Virus record (IMG/VR): IMGVR_UViG_3300030329_002126
Span: 1 to 25,710 of that record
Source: a virus
Reading direction: 5' to 3' (one strand)
Length of the DNA stretch: 25,710 nt
In this document: positions 8,267 to 19,810 of the stretch, piece after piece
Layout of the letters: every line of letters starts with the position of its first letter
Numbering within the stretch: the stretch's first letter is position 1
The notes under the pieces: generated by a model
The model's input: the letters and a program-made list of their open reading frames with translations, nothing else
Databases searched by the model: none
Told to the model about the DNA's origin: nothing
Made by a program: the position numbers and the translations under genes

Positions 8267-8522
8267 AAGAGCAATAAGATCAGATACACAAGAGTTTTTA
8301 AAGAAAAAAAGGTATTCTAAATCTAAAGATGAATGGATTGAATATGGAGATATGCACATTGATCATTTCATTAGAGTATTTGAACAAGAAAAAGAAAATG
8401 ATGATTTATTAGGTTTTATAATAAATGGTTTTATGGAATCTTTAACAAAAAAAGGTTTTGCTAAAAAATTAACCAAAGAAGAATTTTTACAAGAAATTCA
8501 GAAAGATAAAAAATGGAATTAA
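8223..8522 (+). CDS. Hypothetical protein upstream of the recombination pair
   Basis: A 99-residue protein with AAGGAG at 8210-8215. It is helical and charged, with DKRAIRSDTQEFLKKKRY and a C-terminal FAKKLTKEEFLQEIQKD. No family is recognised. Its end overlaps the exonuclease gene by 10 bases (ATGGAATTAA), so it belongs to the recombination unit and may be an accessory to it. Confidence 0.6.
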   Translation: MTLNQLIRIQSIIDKRAIRSDTQEFLKKKRYSKSKDEWIEYGDMHIDHFIRVFEQEKENDDLLGFIINGFMESLTKKGFAKKLTKEEFLQEIQKDKKWN

Positions 8523-9277
8523 AAAATATTATAAAAGAAGATTTTAAACATAGTTTTAGTTCTGTATCAAAATTTAGAAAGAACCCTAGTGAATGGTTAG
8601 TACATTATGGTCTTGGTTTAAAATCACCAAGTAGTCCAGCTATGACAAGAGGTTCTTTAGCAGAGTTTGGTGCTTATTATAAAATAAAAAGAGGTATGCA
8701 ACAAAAAGATGATAAAGGTTTTGATAAGTTAATTAGACATAGATTTAAAAAATTAAAATATCTTAATGCAGAAAGTGAAATAGAAAATGCAGTAGAAATA
8801 GCAAAAAAGTTTGAAGAAAAGCTATATGAAAGACAATTAAGAAATATTGTTAGCTACCAACATGAAAAGGTAGAAAGTATTGTTGGTCTTAAATATCCAG
8901 TTAGATTATTTACTGATTTTGAATATGAACATATTATAGTTGATTTAAAATCTACTTTACGATTACCAAGTAGTCCAAAGGTAGATCATATAAGGCAACA
9001 AGCATTATACTCGGTTGTACATAGAAAACCAATAGCTTTATTATATGCTACACCGAAAAAGTCATTATGGTACGAATTATCTGAACAAGATATTATGGAG
9101 GGTTACCAAGAATTAATAAATGACTTTAAATCTTTAGAGAATTACATTAGTATGTGTAAAAATAATTTAGAGGAAGCAATTAAAATAACTCCTCTAAATA
9201 CTGATCCTAACCCTTTTAGTTGGGATAATAACATAAAACAGGAGGCGATAAAAATATGGCAAAAGATAAACAAATAA
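8513..9277 (+). CDS. PD-(D/E)XK exonuclease (RecB/Cas4-like recombination nuclease)
   Basis: A 254-residue protein. Seen: SFSSVSKFRKNP (14-25), a common N-terminal helix in RecB-like nucleases; TRGSLAEFG (45-53), the RG-type motif; FTDFEYEHIIVDLKST (133-148), with D135, D144 and K146 as the D...(D)xK active site; and HIRQQALYS (159-167), the QxxxY motif. This fits a PD-(D/E)XK exonuclease making 3' single-stranded tails, the counterpart of lambda Red alpha. Its 3' end overlaps the Rad52-type annealing gene by 22 bases, which is the usual pairing and strengthens the assignment. It would act in the cytoplasm on phage double-strand ends. Confidence 0.82.
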   Translation: MELKNIIKEDFKHSFSSVSKFRKNPSEWLVHYGLGLKSPSSPAMTRGSLAEFGAYYKIKRGMQQKDDKGFDKLIRHRFKKLKYLNAESEIENAVEIAKKFEEKLYERQLRNIVSYQHEKVESIVGLKYPVRLFTDFEYEHIIVDLKSTLRLPSSPKVDHIRQQALYSVVHRKPIALLYATPKKSLWYELSEQDIMEGYQELINDFKSLENYISMCKNNLEEAIKITPLNTDPNPFSWDNNIKQEAIKIWQKINK

Positions 9278-9738
9278 AAACAACAGAAGATTTGTCCTTT
9301 GAATTGGCAAAACCTTTTGACAGAAGTGAAATAAAATGGAGACCAGCAAGAATGTTAAAAGATGGTACTACTGCTATTGTTCTAGCTTATGTAGATGTAA
9401 GAACAGTGCAAGATAGGTTAAATACAGTTATGGGTATTGATGGTTGGCAATGTAAACATATTAGCTATGGACCAAAAACTATCTGTCATCTTGGTCTTAA
9501 ATTTAATAACGAATGGGTTTGGCGATCTGATGGTGCTGGAGATACAAACTTTGAAGCAGATAAAGGTGCTATTTCTGATAGTCTTAAAAGGGCGGCAGTA
9601 CAATTTGGTGTTGGTAGGCATTTATATGATTTACCGAGTGTTTTTGTAAAAACTGCAAAAGACAAATATGGTCAAGCACAAATTAACCCTGATGATTGTT
9701 GGAATCAAGTAAGAAGAAAACAATCTGATATTAGTTAA
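9256..9738 (+). CDS. Rad52-family single-strand annealing protein (Sak/DdrA-like)
   Basis: A 160-residue protein. Seen: KWRPAR (27-32), AYVDVRTVQDRLNTVMG (44-60), EWVWRSDGAGDTNFEADKG (86-104) and SDSLKRAAVQFGVGRHLYDL (107-126). These are the hallmark segments of the Rad52/Rad22 fold in phage annealing proteins such as Sak. It would coat single-stranded DNA and anneal complementary strands with the exonuclease encoded just upstream. The start is set by AGGAGG before the ATG at 9256. The C-terminus is short compared with eukaryotic Rad52, normal for phage versions. Confidence 0.9.
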   Translation: MAKDKQIKTTEDLSFELAKPFDRSEIKWRPARMLKDGTTAIVLAYVDVRTVQDRLNTVMGIDGWQCKHISYGPKTICHLGLKFNNEWVWRSDGAGDTNFEADKGAISDSLKRAAVQFGVGRHLYDLPSVFVKTAKDKYGQAQINPDDCWNQVRRKQSDIS

Positions 9739-11035: not shown

Positions 11036-11064
11036 TTTACTTTTCTAATAATACCTAATATAAT
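11036..11064 (+). promoter_or_regulatory. Predicted sigma70-type promoter for the GHKL-protease gene
   Basis: TTTACT (11036-11041) and a perfect TATAAT (11059-11064) are separated by exactly 17 bases. This is the best-matched promoter in the window. The RNA would start near 11071, where a hairpin begins. Confidence 0.7.
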
Positions 11065-11107: not shown

Positions 11108-11147
11108 ATCAAAAGTAAAACCAAACATAACTAAAAAGGAGACTTAT

Positions 11148-12578
11148 ATGTCAAATTGGTTTGATGTAGATAAGTCAGGACTTGCAAAAGTCCAAGCTGA
11201 AAAGGAAAAGTTTTTTGTAGTTCAAGAGTTAGTATCAAATGCTTTTGATGAAAACATAAAACTTTGCGAAATCAATTTTAAAAGAATTGATGGAACAAGA
11301 ACCTATCAGCTTTCTGTTCATGATGATAGTCCTGATGGATTTCAAGACTTATCTCATGCTTACACTTTGTTTGCTGAATCTTATAAAAAAGGTAATGTCA
11401 AACAAAGAGGTAGATTTAATCTTGGAGAAAAACTTGCATTAGCAATGTTTAAATCTGCAAGTATTACATCTACTAAAGGAACAATTACTTTTAATGACCA
11501 AGGTAGGTCTAAAAGTAAAAAATGTTCTGAAGCTGGTACTACTTTTACTGGAGAGATTGTACTTACTCAAGATGAGTACAATACAATGCTCGATAAAGTA
11601 AAAAGTATAATTGTACCAAATGGGGTTACTCTTAAGGTAAATGGTATTGAGGTTGATAAACCTAATATCAAAAAATCTTTTGAGACAACACTACCTACAA
11701 TAATTTCTGATGAAGATGGTAATTTAAAAAAATCTTCTAGAAATACTATTGTAGAAATTTATCCTAAATCAGAAGATAAAGGTAAAATCTTTGAGTTAGG
11801 CATTCCAGTAGTCGAGATAGATATTGACTATGATGTAAATGTCTTACAAAAAGTTCCTTTAAATAAAGATAGGGATAATGTTACTCCTGCTTTTAGGAAG
11901 CAGTTAGCAACAGAGGTACTTAATAATTGTTTTGAAGATTTATCTGAAGAACAAGTTAAGTCAGGTTGGGTTACAGATGCATTAGAAGATGCAGATGAAC
12001 AAGCTGTTGCTGATGTACTTACTAAAAAGCATGGAGATGATGCAGTAGTGTTTGATCCTAATGATCCTGAAGCTAATAAAAAAGCACAAGCAGATGGTCG
12101 TCAAGTAATCTATGGCGGTTCTTATAATTCCAAAGTTTGGGATAGAATAAGATCAACATCTGAATCAACTGGCTCTTTTAAAAGTTCAGGTTCTTACTCT
12201 GCTTTTGCTTCACCTGAATTTCAAGGTGGTGCAGAAGAATTACCATTGGAAAAATATACTGATGGTATGAAAGAGGTTGTAGAATATACCAAGAAAGTTC
12301 ACAAAGAATTAATTGGTATTGATGTAGAGGTATCTTTACATGATGGTGAAGGTGCTAATGCTTCCTACAATGGTAGAATACCTAGAATATCTTTCTTTTG
12401 GAAAGTTCTAGGTCGTGCTTGGTTTAATCTTAAAGTCAATAGAGTTGATATTGATAGATTGCTAATACACGAGTTTGGTCATTACTATTGTTCTGACCAT
12501 TTGGACACTAACTACTACAAAGCACTTTGTAAATTAGGTGCAAAGTTTGTAGATAAAGTTAGAAGCCAAAAACTTTAA
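11148..12578 (+). CDS. GHKL (Bergerat) ATPase fused to a metzincin-like metalloprotease
   Basis: A 476-residue protein. The N-terminus is a Bergerat ATP-binding domain: N box ELVSNAFDE (E27, N31, D34), G1-like box DDSPDGF (59-65) and G2-like box GRFNLGEKLALA (88-99), as in Hsp90, MutL, MORC and histidine-kinase ATPases. A middle region (about 160-310) has a repeated acidic stretch and could be a transducer domain. At the end is HEFGHYYCSDH (441-451): zinc ligands H441, E442, H445 and H451 at metzincin spacing (HExxHxxGxxH) with Cys in place of Gly. I infer ATP-driven control of a zinc protease. It has its own promoter and terminator and no operon partner. No family with this exact pairing is known to me by name. 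Confidence 0.85.
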   Translation: MSNWFDVDKSGLAKVQAEKEKFFVVQELVSNAFDENIKLCEINFKRIDGTRTYQLSVHDDSPDGFQDLSHAYTLFAESYKKGNVKQRGRFNLGEKLALAMFKSASITSTKGTITFNDQGRSKSKKCSEAGTTFTGEIVLTQDEYNTMLDKVKSIIVPNGVTLKVNGIEVDKPNIKKSFETTLPTIISDEDGNLKKSSRNTIVEIYPKSEDKGKIFELGIPVVEIDIDYDVNVLQKVPLNKDRDNVTPAFRKQLATEVLNNCFEDLSEEQVKSGWVTDALEDADEQAVADVLTKKHGDDAVVFDPNDPEANKKAQADGRQVIYGGSYNSKVWDRIRSTSESTGSFKSSGSYSAFASPEFQGGAEELPLEKYTDGMKEVVEYTKKVHKELIGIDVEVSLHDGEGANASYNGRIPRISFFWKVLGRAWFNLKVNRVDIDRLLIHEFGHYYCSDHLDTNYYKALCKLGAKFVDKVRSQKL

Positions 12579-12589
12579 TTAAAGTTCAA

Positions 12590-12613
12590 GGGGTGGCGAT
12601 TACTCGCCACTCC
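12590..12613 (+). terminator. Hairpin after the GHKL-protease gene
   Basis: GGGGTGGCGA (12590-12599) pairs with TCGCCACTCC (12604-12613), one G-U pair, loop TTAC. It is unusually GC-rich for this genome and sits 11 bases after the stop. The T tract is poor, but it would strongly protect or end the transcript. Confidence 0.6.
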
Positions 12614-12665: not shown

Positions 12666-12687
12666 GATACTTTCTTGTATCATTTTT
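12666..12687 (+). terminator. Weak plus-strand terminator
   Basis: GATAC (12666-12670), loop TTTCTT, GTATC (12677-12681), followed by A and six T bases. The stem is only 5 bp. It may back up the hairpin at 12590 at this convergent boundary. Confidence 0.35.
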
Positions 12688-13016
12688 TATTTATCAAAGC
12701 AATCGTAAATATAATCTCTTACTTTTTTATTTTGTTTTAATACCTTTGTTAATCCATCACCTAAAGCCATAACAATAGGTTCTTCACCTCTATCTTTTAC
12801 TTTTAAACCCTCATTAAATATAATGATATGAAATATCTCATGTAAAAGTGTATTTAGAAATACTTCACCTTTCATATTTTGGTCAAAATTGACTGTTTGT
12901 TTATTAGTATCGTATAGACCATAACAAGCATCAGTCTTTAAAAGATCAGAATAAATAACCTTTATTCTTTTCTTTCCATACTTTATTACCTTAAAGTTTG
13001 GATTAATTAGTTTCAT
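12687..13016 (-). CDS. Small HExxH zinc metallopeptidase-like protein
   Basis: A 109-residue protein. Residues 56-66 read NTLLHEIFHII, with H59, E60 and H63 as an HExxH site, and a later acidic motif (GEEPIVMAL, E78/E79) could supply the third ligand as in gluzincin or ImmA/IrrE-like peptidases. The context NFDQNMKGEVFLNTLLHE is typical of small phage metallopeptidases. Substrate unknown; a repressor or host protein is possible. It is the last gene of the leftward late region and converges on the GHKL-protease fusion, so two unrelated HExxH proteins meet at this point. Confidence 0.7.
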   Translation of the reverse strand: MKLINPNFKVIKYGKKRIKVIYSDLLKTDACYGLYDTNKQTVNFDQNMKGEVFLNTLLHEIFHIIIFNEGLKVKDRGEEPIVMALGDGLTKVLKQNKKVRDYIYDCFDK

Positions 13017-17289: not shown

Positions 17290-17432
17290 TCTGTATCTAT
17301 TAAAAATCTTACTATTGTTGTATATGGATTTGGTTCATATTTAGCACAACTGTTAAGCATAAATAATAATGTAAGGCAGGTGAGTTTGGTGGTTTGGTGG
17401 TAAAACTCACCCACCAGTTTTCGGTTTATCAT
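17286..17432 (-). CDS. 48-residue lipoprotein
   Basis: A small gene joined on both sides: its ATG overlaps the TGA of the oxygenase gene (ATGA), and its TGA overlaps the ATG of the methyltransferase gene. The N-terminus has basic residues, a hydrophobic run (LTCLTLLFMLNSC) and a lipobox LNSC with Cys29 as the lipid-bearing residue, leaving a 20-residue mature part. It may be an Rz1-like spanin partner or an exclusion lipoprotein; the mature part is not proline-rich, which counts against Rz1. Confidence 0.6.
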   Translation of the reverse strand: MINRKLVGEFYHQTTKLTCLTLLFMLNSCAKYEPNPYTTIVRFLIDTE

Positions 17433-18049
17433 CTTTTAAACCAGTTTGGAAGTCCTAAATGTAATCTTTTATCAAAAATATTATCTTTAGCAAATTTTGT
17501 TTTAGTGTTGTTGTAATGTAAGAATACTTGAACAGATTGTTTTCCTTTAAATTTTTCTCTCCAATGTTCTAATTCACAACCACTATAAACAAGCATATCT
17601 CCAGCTTCTAAATTAACTTTAATACCTTTTTTACCAAGCTCTCCTGATGGTTCTAAATATATTGACCATTTATCACCACCAAGATTCATTGTTGTAGATA
17701 TTTCACAACTAAATCTATCTTTGTGTCTTTTAAGAATATCTCCTTTTTTGTAAACTCTGCCGTAAGTATATGCAGGATATAATTTCAAACCTGTTGTTTT
17801 TTCCATTATTGGTTGACATTTTAACATTAAAGTTTCCATAGCAATATCAGAATAAAATGAATAAGTATTTGGTATTTGTTCACTTTCTTTTTCATAATAT
17901 CCTAACATAGTTTCATATGGAGAAATATACCTTTCTTGCAAACAAGTGTCATAAACTTGTTTTTTCATTAACAAGTAGTTCATACAAAAAGTTGCTAACT
18001 CTTTGTTAATAGCTTTTTTTATTATTGCATATTTATTTTTTTTAAACAT
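17429..18049 (-). CDS. 2-oxoglutarate/Fe(II) oxygenase (HxD...H)
   Basis: A 206-residue protein from the ATG at 18049 (a longer in-frame start overlaps the neighbour). Seen: TYGRVYKKGDILKRHKDRFSC (95-115) with the metal site H109 and D111, then DKWSIYLEP, GDMLVYSG and ELEHWRE (H162) as the second His, and a basic/aromatic end. This is a prolyl-4-hydroxylase-like double-stranded beta-helix. It would use 2-oxoglutarate and oxygen to hydroxylate an unknown target. Unlike TET proteins it shows no DNA-binding insertion I can recognise. First in a row of four such genes in reverse order of transcription. Confidence 0.8.
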   Translation of the reverse strand: MFKKNKYAIIKKAINKELATFCMNYLLMKKQVYDTCLQERYISPYETMLGYYEKESEQIPNTYSFYSDIAMETLMLKCQPIMEKTTGLKLYPAYTYGRVYKKGDILKRHKDRFSCEISTTMNLGGDKWSIYLEPSGELGKKGIKVNLEAGDMLVYSGCELEHWREKFKGKQSVQVFLHYNNTKTKFAKDNIFDKRLHLGLPNWFKR

Positions 18050-18671
18050 CTTTCGCCATTTCTTTTGGTATACATTGTACGTTCCAATGTATAAATCTAA
18101 ATGGTTCTTTACCATGATCTACTGCAAACTCGTGTTCTAAATATCCTGGAAATATAATTAATGTTCCTGGAGTTGGTCTATAATGTATTAGTTCTGCACC
18201 AGCTAATACTCCTTTTTGTTCTTTCATTTTTAGTTTTGTTGCTCTAGCACCTGTTCTTGGTTCATGAAAAATAGGATAAGAAGTTTTTTCACTACATTTT
18301 AAAAAATAAAAACCTGATACATGTTGATTCCAATGTATGTGTGCAGAATGATGACCACCACCTTTTTTAGAAAACTCTTGCACCCATAGTTCAGAAAACA
18401 TAGTTTGATATTGTGTCATATCATAACCTTGATGATCTAAATATTCCCAAGACTTTTGACCTATGTAATTTCTAAAATCTAAAAAATCATTATCTTTTGT
18501 TAGTGGTGTTGAATGATACGACCTTCCAAAATCACTATATTCTTTTATATATGCTTTTTCTCTTTTACGAGCATCAGTAATATATTTATTACTTGCTTTG
18601 TTTAATGATTTAACAAATTCAGGTTTTTGTTCTGACCAAATTGTTGTACTAAAATAATTATTTATATACAT
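18042..18671 (-). CDS. 2-oxoglutarate/Fe(II) oxygenase-like protein (TIGR02466-like)
   Basis: A 209-residue protein resembling the TIGR02466 family of putative oxygenases. Seen: AHIHWNQHVSGFYFL (110-124) with HIH at 111-113, PGTLIIFPGYLEHEF (168-182) with H180, and R192 followed by FIHWN. The first metal motif is HxH rather than HxD, as is usual for that family. Common in marine phages; the substrate is not known. Overlaps the next gene by 8 bases. Confidence 0.75.
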   Translation of the reverse strand: MYINNYFSTTIWSEQKPEFVKSLNKASNKYITDARKREKAYIKEYSDFGRSYHSTPLTKDNDFLDFRNYIGQKSWEYLDHQGYDMTQYQTMFSELWVQEFSKKGGGHHSAHIHWNQHVSGFYFLKCSEKTSYPIFHEPRTGARATKLKMKEQKGVLAGAELIHYRPTPGTLIIFPGYLEHEFAVDHGKEPFRFIHWNVQCIPKEMAKDV

Positions 18672-18672
18672 A

Positions 18673-19311
18673 TTATCTAAATGGTTTTCCTAAATGCCAC
18701 ACAACAAGACTATACCTTGTTCCAGAAGTAACTGGTTTAACTCTATGCCAAACGAAACTCGGAAATACAATTATAGATCCTTTTGGTAAAATTTCTTTAC
18801 ATTGTATTCTATGTATTGATTCATCTCGCATATGGGGATCATAATTTCTAAAATCAAACTCTAGTTCTCCTCCACTATATTCTGAGCCATCTGTTAATTG
18901 GCAAGTCATAGATAATTTTCTTATACGACCATGTTCAGGGTCATTAATATCTTTTCTTTCGTAGGGTTTTTCCCAACTATCACAATGCCAATCATAATAT
19001 TGATTTAGTTTATATTTTGTAAATTGGCAAGATTCACTTCTTTCCCAATCAAAATTCCAACCTGCATATCTATTAGCTTGATGTACATAAGGATGTAATT
19101 CTTTATAAATCCATAAATCATTTAACCAAACTAAATCAGAGTTTCTTTTCCTTTTTAAATCTAATACTTCTTGTTTATTTAATTTTTTTTTTCCATATCC
19201 ACCTGTCAAAGCCATAACTTCTTTTTTTTGTTTTGCATAAGCTATGACATCATCACAAAATCTAGGCGTTAATGCAGATTTAAAATACCAATAATAATTA
19301 GATAAATTCAT
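18673..19311 (-). CDS. 2-oxoglutarate/Fe(II) oxygenase (PKHD-type hydroxylase-like)
   Basis: A 212-residue protein. Seen: YYDWHCDSWEKP (105-116) with H109 and D111, LSMTCQLTDGSEYSGGELEF (133-152), IVFPSFVWHRVKPV (181-194) with H189, and SGTRYSLVVW (196-205) with R199 for 2-oxoglutarate binding. All four catalytic positions are present, so this is the most convincing active enzyme of the group. It would hydroxylate a peptide, nucleic acid or small molecule. It starts 14 bases inside the end of the gene above it. Confidence 0.88.
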   Translation of the reverse strand: MNLSNYYWYFKSALTPRFCDDVIAYAKQKKEVMALTGGYGKKKLNKQEVLDLKRKRNSDLVWLNDLWIYKELHPYVHQANRYAGWNFDWERSESCQFTKYKLNQYYDWHCDSWEKPYERKDINDPEHGRIRKLSMTCQLTDGSEYSGGELEFDFRNYDPHMRDESIHRIQCKEILPKGSIIVFPSFVWHRVKPVTSGTRYSLVVWHLGKPFR

Positions 19312-19810
19312 AAGTTGTTTTAAGAATAAAATTTAATTTCTCTTTTTGATTATTTGATATGTGGTAAATTAAGGTACTAGGAAACATAATAAATTTGTTA
19401 TTTGTTAATTTTATATCCCAGCTTCTTCCTGCTCTCCTATTATCATCATAATAAATTCTTACAAAAGAATCTTTTAAATCTACACCATACAACATTACAT
19501 AATCAGGTGAGTTTCTTAAATCAACTTTATTGTTTTCACATTCAGGTAAATTAGATTCATTTGGTTTAAACATTAAACCAGTTGTTAATTTATTAATTAA
19601 ACTAAAACCATATTCTACATTTATATGTTCTCTTAAATAAGTATTTAATTTATCCCAATCTCTTGAAAAAGGAAAAGGACAATCTTGTATATTGTGAGTA
19701 AGTATATCTTTTGTTAAAAGTTCATTATCAATTTCAAAACCTTTCGGCATTAAAATTGTACCAGTATATAAATCTATTTTTGAAAGTATGTTTTGTTCAA
19801 TGTCCACCAT
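19298..19810 (-). CDS. Oxygenase-like protein lacking a clear HxD site
   Basis: A 170-residue protein with a beta-helix-like C-terminus: YVMLYGVDLKDSFVRIYYDD (104-123), then NRRAGRSWDI and NKFIMFPSTLIYHISNNQ (138-155), where H150 could be the distal His. I do not see a matching HxD upstream. Similar proteins occur in marine T4-like and pelagic phages next to oxygenases. It may be an inactive structural relative or a partner of the enzymes encoded below it. Confidence 0.6.
   Translation of the reverse strand: MVDIEQNILSKIDLYTGTILMPKGFEIDNELLTKDILTHNIQDCPFPFSRDWDKLNTYLREHINVEYGFSLINKLTTGLMFKPNESNLPECENNKVDLRNSPDYVMLYGVDLKDSFVRIYYDDNRRAGRSWDIKLTNNKFIMFPSTLIYHISNNQKEKLNFILKTTYEFI

Follow-up and report, generated by a model that had tools for sequence, protein, structure and literature searches.

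A GHKL ATPase fused to a predicted Wss1-type zinc protease in large phages and plasmids

What would a virus gain from a single chain that begins as an ATPase and ends in a zinc-protease site? The question is raised by a gene in the window, the whole 25,710-nucleotide stretch of viral record IMGVR_UViG_3300030329_002126 that was analyzed. Its 476-amino-acid open reading frame begins with ATG and occupies 11148-12578 on the plus strand (coding 11148..12575, stop 12576-12578), and a Shine-Dalgarno sequence, AGGAG, lies at 11137-11141 (+), 6 nt 5' of the ATG. The frame, a conserved full-length family, and an AF2 model with a pLDDT of 93.9 support its annotation as a GHKL-minigluzincin fusion protein. 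The initial annotation described a GHKL ATPase fused to a metzincin-like protease and named E27, N31, D34, G88-RFNLGEK-95, and H441-EFGHYYCSDH-451, all of which are found at those places. The GHKL ATPase and the zinc protease are upheld by conservation, profile searches, and two confident models, whereas assignment to the metzincin family is not. Comparison with a relative of 97% identity (locus L001) gives a dN/dS of ~0.15, and comparison with one of 72% identity (L011) gives 0.23; in the protease third, the codon changes relative to L001 are three silent and no replacement. Judged from these sequences, the gene is under purifying selection, and both predicted active sites are kept by phages. 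A strong promoter and terminators of its own, also claimed at the outset, find little backing, as promoter-like and terminator-like sites do not rise above chance. A single TTTACT-17-TATAAT site lies upstream (11036-11064, 10/12 promoter match), and promoter-like sites are rarer than in shuffled sequence (6 versus 13.9). The sole terminator-like match is on the minus strand (1 versus 0.7 expected), and a GC hairpin at 12590-12613 has no T-run.

When the window protein alone was searched, Pfam returned only sub-threshold HATPase matches and nothing usable for the C-terminal half; PHROGs, NCBIfam, and PADLOC returned nothing usable, and phmmer against the PDB returned nothing. A protein query recovered a full-length relative in the 485-kb phage LR745208 (40.5% identity) and full-length copies on Bosea, Rhodovastum, and Methylibium plasmids (37-38% identity). 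An alignment query recovered at least 204 relatives in IMG/VR viral contigs, 80 of which were retained (contigs up to 435 kb), and 33 in bacterial or archaeal contigs. The 115 full-length sequences that were aligned comprise 94 that are non-redundant at 90%. The same fusion, with both active sites intact, occurs in well over 100 mostly unrelated phages and plasmids.

The N-terminal GHKL (Bergerat) ATPase domain, residues 1-140 (11148..11567, +), is assigned from Pfam, Foldseek, and invariant motifs. Its motifs are E27-N31-D34 (motif I), D59-D60-x-P-x-G64 (motif II), R87-GRFNLGEK95 (lid/G-box), and G130 (motif IV). N31, D34, D59, G64, R87, G88, G93, K95, G130, Q234, and R242 are present in all 115 aligned full-length relatives, E27 of the ExxxNxxD motif is kept in 113, and the middle Gly of motif II is replaced by Pro in most. 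Among the 94 non-redundant members, HATPase_c_3 is matched in 78 and HATPase_c in 57. Motif I, motif II with the lid and motif IV, and the Bergerat fold together place the protein in the GHKL superfamily. An S5/transducer-like (Hsp90 middle-domain-like) domain follows, residues 141-270 (11568..11957, +), delimited by a Foldseek span over the N and M domains of TRAP1/Hsp90 and over MORC3. It carries the invariant Q234-K235-x-P-L-N-x-D-R242, in which Q234-K235...R242 is a candidate Lys/Arg finger. Secondary structure and conservation define a helical linker, residues 271-365 (11958..12242, +), with a conserved DPxDPEANK; G296, D306, and E308 are conserved in 99%, 98%, and 91% of aligned relatives.

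The whole-protein AF2 model (pTM 0.79) was built from 89 sequences, with rows from annotated records left out. Its best Foldseek matches in the PDB are the N and M domains of Hsp90/TRAP1 (E ~1e-13), followed by MORC3 and MORC2; with the invariant basic R242, these matches give the GHKL-plus-S5 arrangement of MORC/paraMORC proteins. Against viral models, a close relative (E=8e-35) is followed by several RIIA proteins, so that residues ~1-270 group with Hsp90/TRAP1, MORC, and phage RIIA. Outside its own family, the nearest viral folds include many RIIA proteins, which raises the possibility of an RIIA-like counter-defence or host-takeover protease: the clamp would recognize a specific protein of host defence or regulation, which the protease would destroy early in infection, DNA not necessarily being involved. 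RIIA itself is described as joining a GHKL module to a C-terminal domain that varies, with a role in counter-defence (PMC7824862), and the patchy spread of a singleton gene over unrelated phages would suit such a function. However, the RIIA match covers the ATPase module only, rather than the full length, and RIIB is not named among the neighbors. Nor is there a link to a particular defence system: an annotated SIR2-HerA neighbor on a Rhodovastum plasmid is a single case. We regard this explanation as unlikely, though the most credible of the alternatives considered here.

The C-terminal domain, residues 366-476 (12243..12575, +), is assigned as a minigluzincin/Wss1-type zinc protease from AF2, Foldseek, and sub-cut-off Pfam matches, and conservation across relatives points to a predicted zinc site at H441-E442-F-G-H445-YYCSD-H451 (12468..12500, +). 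Conservation of HExxH had been set beforehand as one point on which the protease claim would turn, and HExxH is found in all 94 non-redundant relatives (20-72% identity). The third His, H451, is at the same place in 92 of these; in the other two (L118 and L120) it stands two residues later, as HExxHx7HGPxW, a pattern that we take to be that of SprT/WLM proteases. H441, E442, and H445 are each present in 113 of the 115 aligned relatives. One exception, L106, stops short of the site, and the other, L117, is frameshifted, with HELAHALGDTPMEHGPRW in another frame. The truncated L106 is thus the sole family member found without HExxH, and by sequence the pairing of GHKL with HExxH appears near-constant. 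From the lack of an above-threshold Pfam match in the C-terminal half, one might suspect that the protein is an ATPase in which HExxH is incidental and a protease domain is missing. However, because the ATPase and HExxH motifs are near-invariant across the 115 relatives, they are not chance occurrences; this conservation, with the third His shifted in just two members and a confident zincin fold, refutes a degenerate motif, which we consider extremely improbable. The fusion architecture, a GHKL and S5 ATPase followed by a zinc site in one chain, is almost certainly correct.

Which kind of zincin is this? The ligand spacing that suggested a metzincin stands, whereas the family does not, as the fold neighbors are minigluzincins and Wss1. 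Position 448, a Gly in metzincins, is S in 50, E in 20, A in 19, C in 9, and G in 3 of the 115 relatives. Met is not conserved within 452-476, where the chain ends as a single helix (454-472). Because the diagnostic Gly is absent from all but 3 of 115 relatives and no conserved Met follows the zinc motif as a Met-turn, metzincin membership was rejected. In Wss1, the crystallographic zinc ligands are His-115, His-119, and His-125 (PMC5557861), and H441/H445/H451 have the same +4/+10 spacing. An AF2 model of the C-terminal 113 residues alone (pLDDT 97.6, pTM 0.90) was compared with the PDB by Foldseek. The top nine matches are the archaeal minigluzincins abylysin, jannalysin, and selecase, Wss1 ranks 15 (E=0.45), and the first metzincin, ZHE1, ranks 47; the scores are modest (best E 0.009, TM 0.5-0.6). 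The modeled domain thus has a minigluzincin/WLM fold at modest E-values. These neighbors and the shared spacing are the reasons for filing the domain as probably minigluzincin/Wss1-like. By Pfam, WLM is matched in 6 of the 94 members (best E 0.005) and YgjP(-like) in 2, below cut-off, so formal WLM membership does not follow. The best sequence match in a profile search is the metzincin myroilysin (E=0.001), with Wss1/WLM weaker; this distant match reflects the shared zincin core.

A mechanism can be proposed from these parts. ATP drives dimer closure in Hsp90, MutL, and MORC, and because these proteins behave in this way, we propose by analogy that two N-terminal modules would close on a substrate as a dimeric clamp once ATP is bound, and that the gamma-phosphate would be sensed by the conserved Q-K...R in the S5 domain. 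Closure would carry the C-terminal protease to the trapped target and activate it there, making proteolysis ATP-gated. Clamp control of the enzyme is suggested by analogy with Vibrio cholerae VcSduA, which needs both of its sites: defence is lost when the ATPase site or the nuclease site is mutated (PMC12137116). A DNA-associated target is suggested by the precedent of the minigluzincins Wss1 and Spartan: Wss1 becomes active on binding DNA and removes proteins bound to chromatin (PMC4559962). The likeliest targets would be proteins on DNA, whether host defence proteins, nucleoid proteins, or stalled or crosslinked proteins, and the action of this single gene, which has no fixed partner, would be timed to the early DNA-metabolism phase. 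The conserved active sites, the fold matches, and the recombination-module neighbors count for an ATP-gated dimeric clamp that, early in infection, directs a Wss1-type protease to proteins associated with DNA; the modest Foldseek scores of the protease domain, myroilysin as the best profile match, and the diverse neighbors count against it. On balance, we hold this reading to have close to an even chance of being right.

The genomic context bears on these proposals. In the window, a PD-(D/E)XK exonuclease (8513-9277) and an Erf annealing protein (9256-9738) lie upstream of the fusion gene, with two short ORFs and a DUF2262-like gene just upstream as well. Elsewhere, named PHROG neighbors include a helicase, UvsX, DNA polymerase, dUTPase, a methyltransferase, a topoisomerase-like protein, and regulators; no head or tail protein name is among the 25 most frequent neighbor families listed. 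Recognizable neighbor domains are mostly those of DNA/RNA metabolism and regulators, and include an SRAP gene and a RecA gene. Because the neighbors are diverse, this apparent bias toward DNA metabolism is no more than suggestive. A fixed operon partner was rejected, as no partner gene is conserved across the family loci, and no operon with restriction-modification genes, as is typical of MORC/paraMORC, is conserved either. The context fits an early gene acting alone.

The adjoining recombination module, together with SRAP and RecA among the neighbors, would also suit a protease that repairs DNA-protein crosslinks or roadblocks while the phage replicates, a single-protein equivalent of Wss1/Spartan together with Cdc48. 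The protease fold and ligand spacing are as in Wss1, and MutL and MORC are examples of GHKL modules that act on DNA. However, there is no fixed tie to replication genes, and to our knowledge most phages replicate without such an enzyme; we judge a dedicated repair role to be rather improbable, behind counter-defence. The copies on Bosea, Rhodovastum, and Methylibium plasmids and in bacterial contigs, and the parallel with VcSduA, could instead point to a phage- or plasmid-borne defence against competing elements, with a protease as effector. PADLOC gives no match, however, and most copies are in virus-classified contigs, including phages of 170-485 kb, which leaves such a defence improbable and behind repair. 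Considered broadly, a role in host takeover, defence, or anti-defence is plausible.

Several other features of these loci were recorded. Downstream of the fusion gene and convergent with it, a separate 109-amino-acid HExxH protein (HEIFH; 12687-13016, -) gives weak SprT-like/DUF6782 and phrog_1233 matches. Its gene is kept beside the fusion gene in L001, L002, and L018 and resembles, at the DNA level, one from Pelagibacter phage HTVC112P. Two adjoining 2OG-Fe(II) oxygenases (Pfam 1e-13 and 1e-14) occupy 18042-19311 (-) of the window, flanked by similar-looking ORFs at 17429-18115 and 19298-19810 that have no Pfam match; all are downstream of tail-fibre-like genes. On the Rhodovastum plasmid RHOApd (L008:3770-6801), the fusion gene lies ~3 kb from the SIR2-HerA anti-phage pair, near a phage tail gene. 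A Topo VI A/Spo11-like Mini-A gene is near the fusion gene in a few unrelated records, namely the L042-L046 clade, L073, L085, and the archaeal MAG L116 (L042:4217-5191, L073:4356-5321, L116:9015-10151), and Mini-A is present in 8 of 50 whole records. In the reverse search, 2 of 80 Mini-A loci carry the fusion family and 4 of 80 carry cluster 18, described below, and Mini-A was rejected as a general partner.

Large phages hold at least one, and perhaps two, further GHKL-zincin families. Cluster 27 (phrog_6077-like) is homologous to the fusion family over its full length (hhalign E=1e-6); its zinc motif is HExAHxxxxDGxxxH at the end, and its G-box, GKFGEGLK, is more Hsp90-like. About 20 well-matched members are in viral contigs (including L059:4070-5386, L074:825-2132, L081:3489-4868, L090:3029-4369, and the start of L039), and five lie within 6 kb of a fusion-family gene. 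Because cluster 27 has relatives of ~380 amino acids without any HExxH, the protease is a trait of some GHKL lines and not of all. In cluster 18, the GHKL boxes are apparently rearranged, with GQFGSGNK before EFxSNAxDR, and a conserved EExxHxxTxxxDxSRDxQD stands where HExxH would be. This cluster has 26 viral loci and lies within 6 kb of the fusion gene in some records (members include L004:7698-9125, L042:8322-9749, and L088:1774-3294). A distant GHKL-zincin protein ending IHEAAHAMNMHHGEDF is encoded by the Picosynechococcus plasmid pAQ6 (L010:7388-13859), where its gene has a stand-alone DisA nucleotide-binding-domain gene on one side and a TPR-CHAT gene on the other; the ATPase match is shared by three plasmids.

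We tentatively suggest, with slightly less assurance than for the clamp itself, a class of ATP-gated clamp proteases in large phages and plasmids, comprising at least two homologous GHKL-S5-zincin families and, as a third, the rearranged GHKL family whose chain ends in EExxH. These proteins would strip DNA of bound proteins or degrade proteins of host defence, and would be a prokaryotic equivalent, complete in itself, of the Wss1-Cdc48 machine. GHKL clamps with a nuclease or TIR are known in bacterial immunity, whereas the protease version has no described function. The fusion protein would show how a zinc protease can be gated by ATP without an AAA unfoldase, and with this family one could test whether host proteins bound to DNA are degraded by phages. 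It is also tractable, being small enough for expression and having two active sites that can be removed by single substitutions.

GHKL-effector fusions are already known, with a nuclease in paraMORC3 and a TIR domain in paraMORC4 (PMC2292703). The papers searched contain no report of a GHKL-protease fusion; the new part is the protease effector. Like the fusion protein, T4 RIIA is encoded by a phage and joins an N-terminal GHKL module to a C-terminal domain that varies, but the likeness does not extend beyond the ATPase module, and PMC7824862 reports no zincin for RIIA. Wss1/WLM proteases and the minigluzincins abylysin and selecase share the domain fold and HExxH, and Wss1 also the third His at +10 of a three-His zinc site, but these chains have no ATPase, and sequence identity is 9-18%. 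MORC/paraMORC proteins have the N-terminal GHKL and S5 domains with the full set of motifs and an effector domain after them; their known effectors are nucleases or TIR domains in restriction-type operons, whereas here the effector is a predicted protease outside any conserved operon. VcSduA, a paraMORC3-like GHKL-Shedu nuclease, is likewise a single chain in which a GHKL clamp is proposed to control a C-terminal enzyme, but that enzyme is a PD-(D/E)XK nuclease, and the system is a bacterium-encoded anti-phage defence. Cluster 27 shares the full-length architecture of the fusion family and differs in its zinc motif and G-box.
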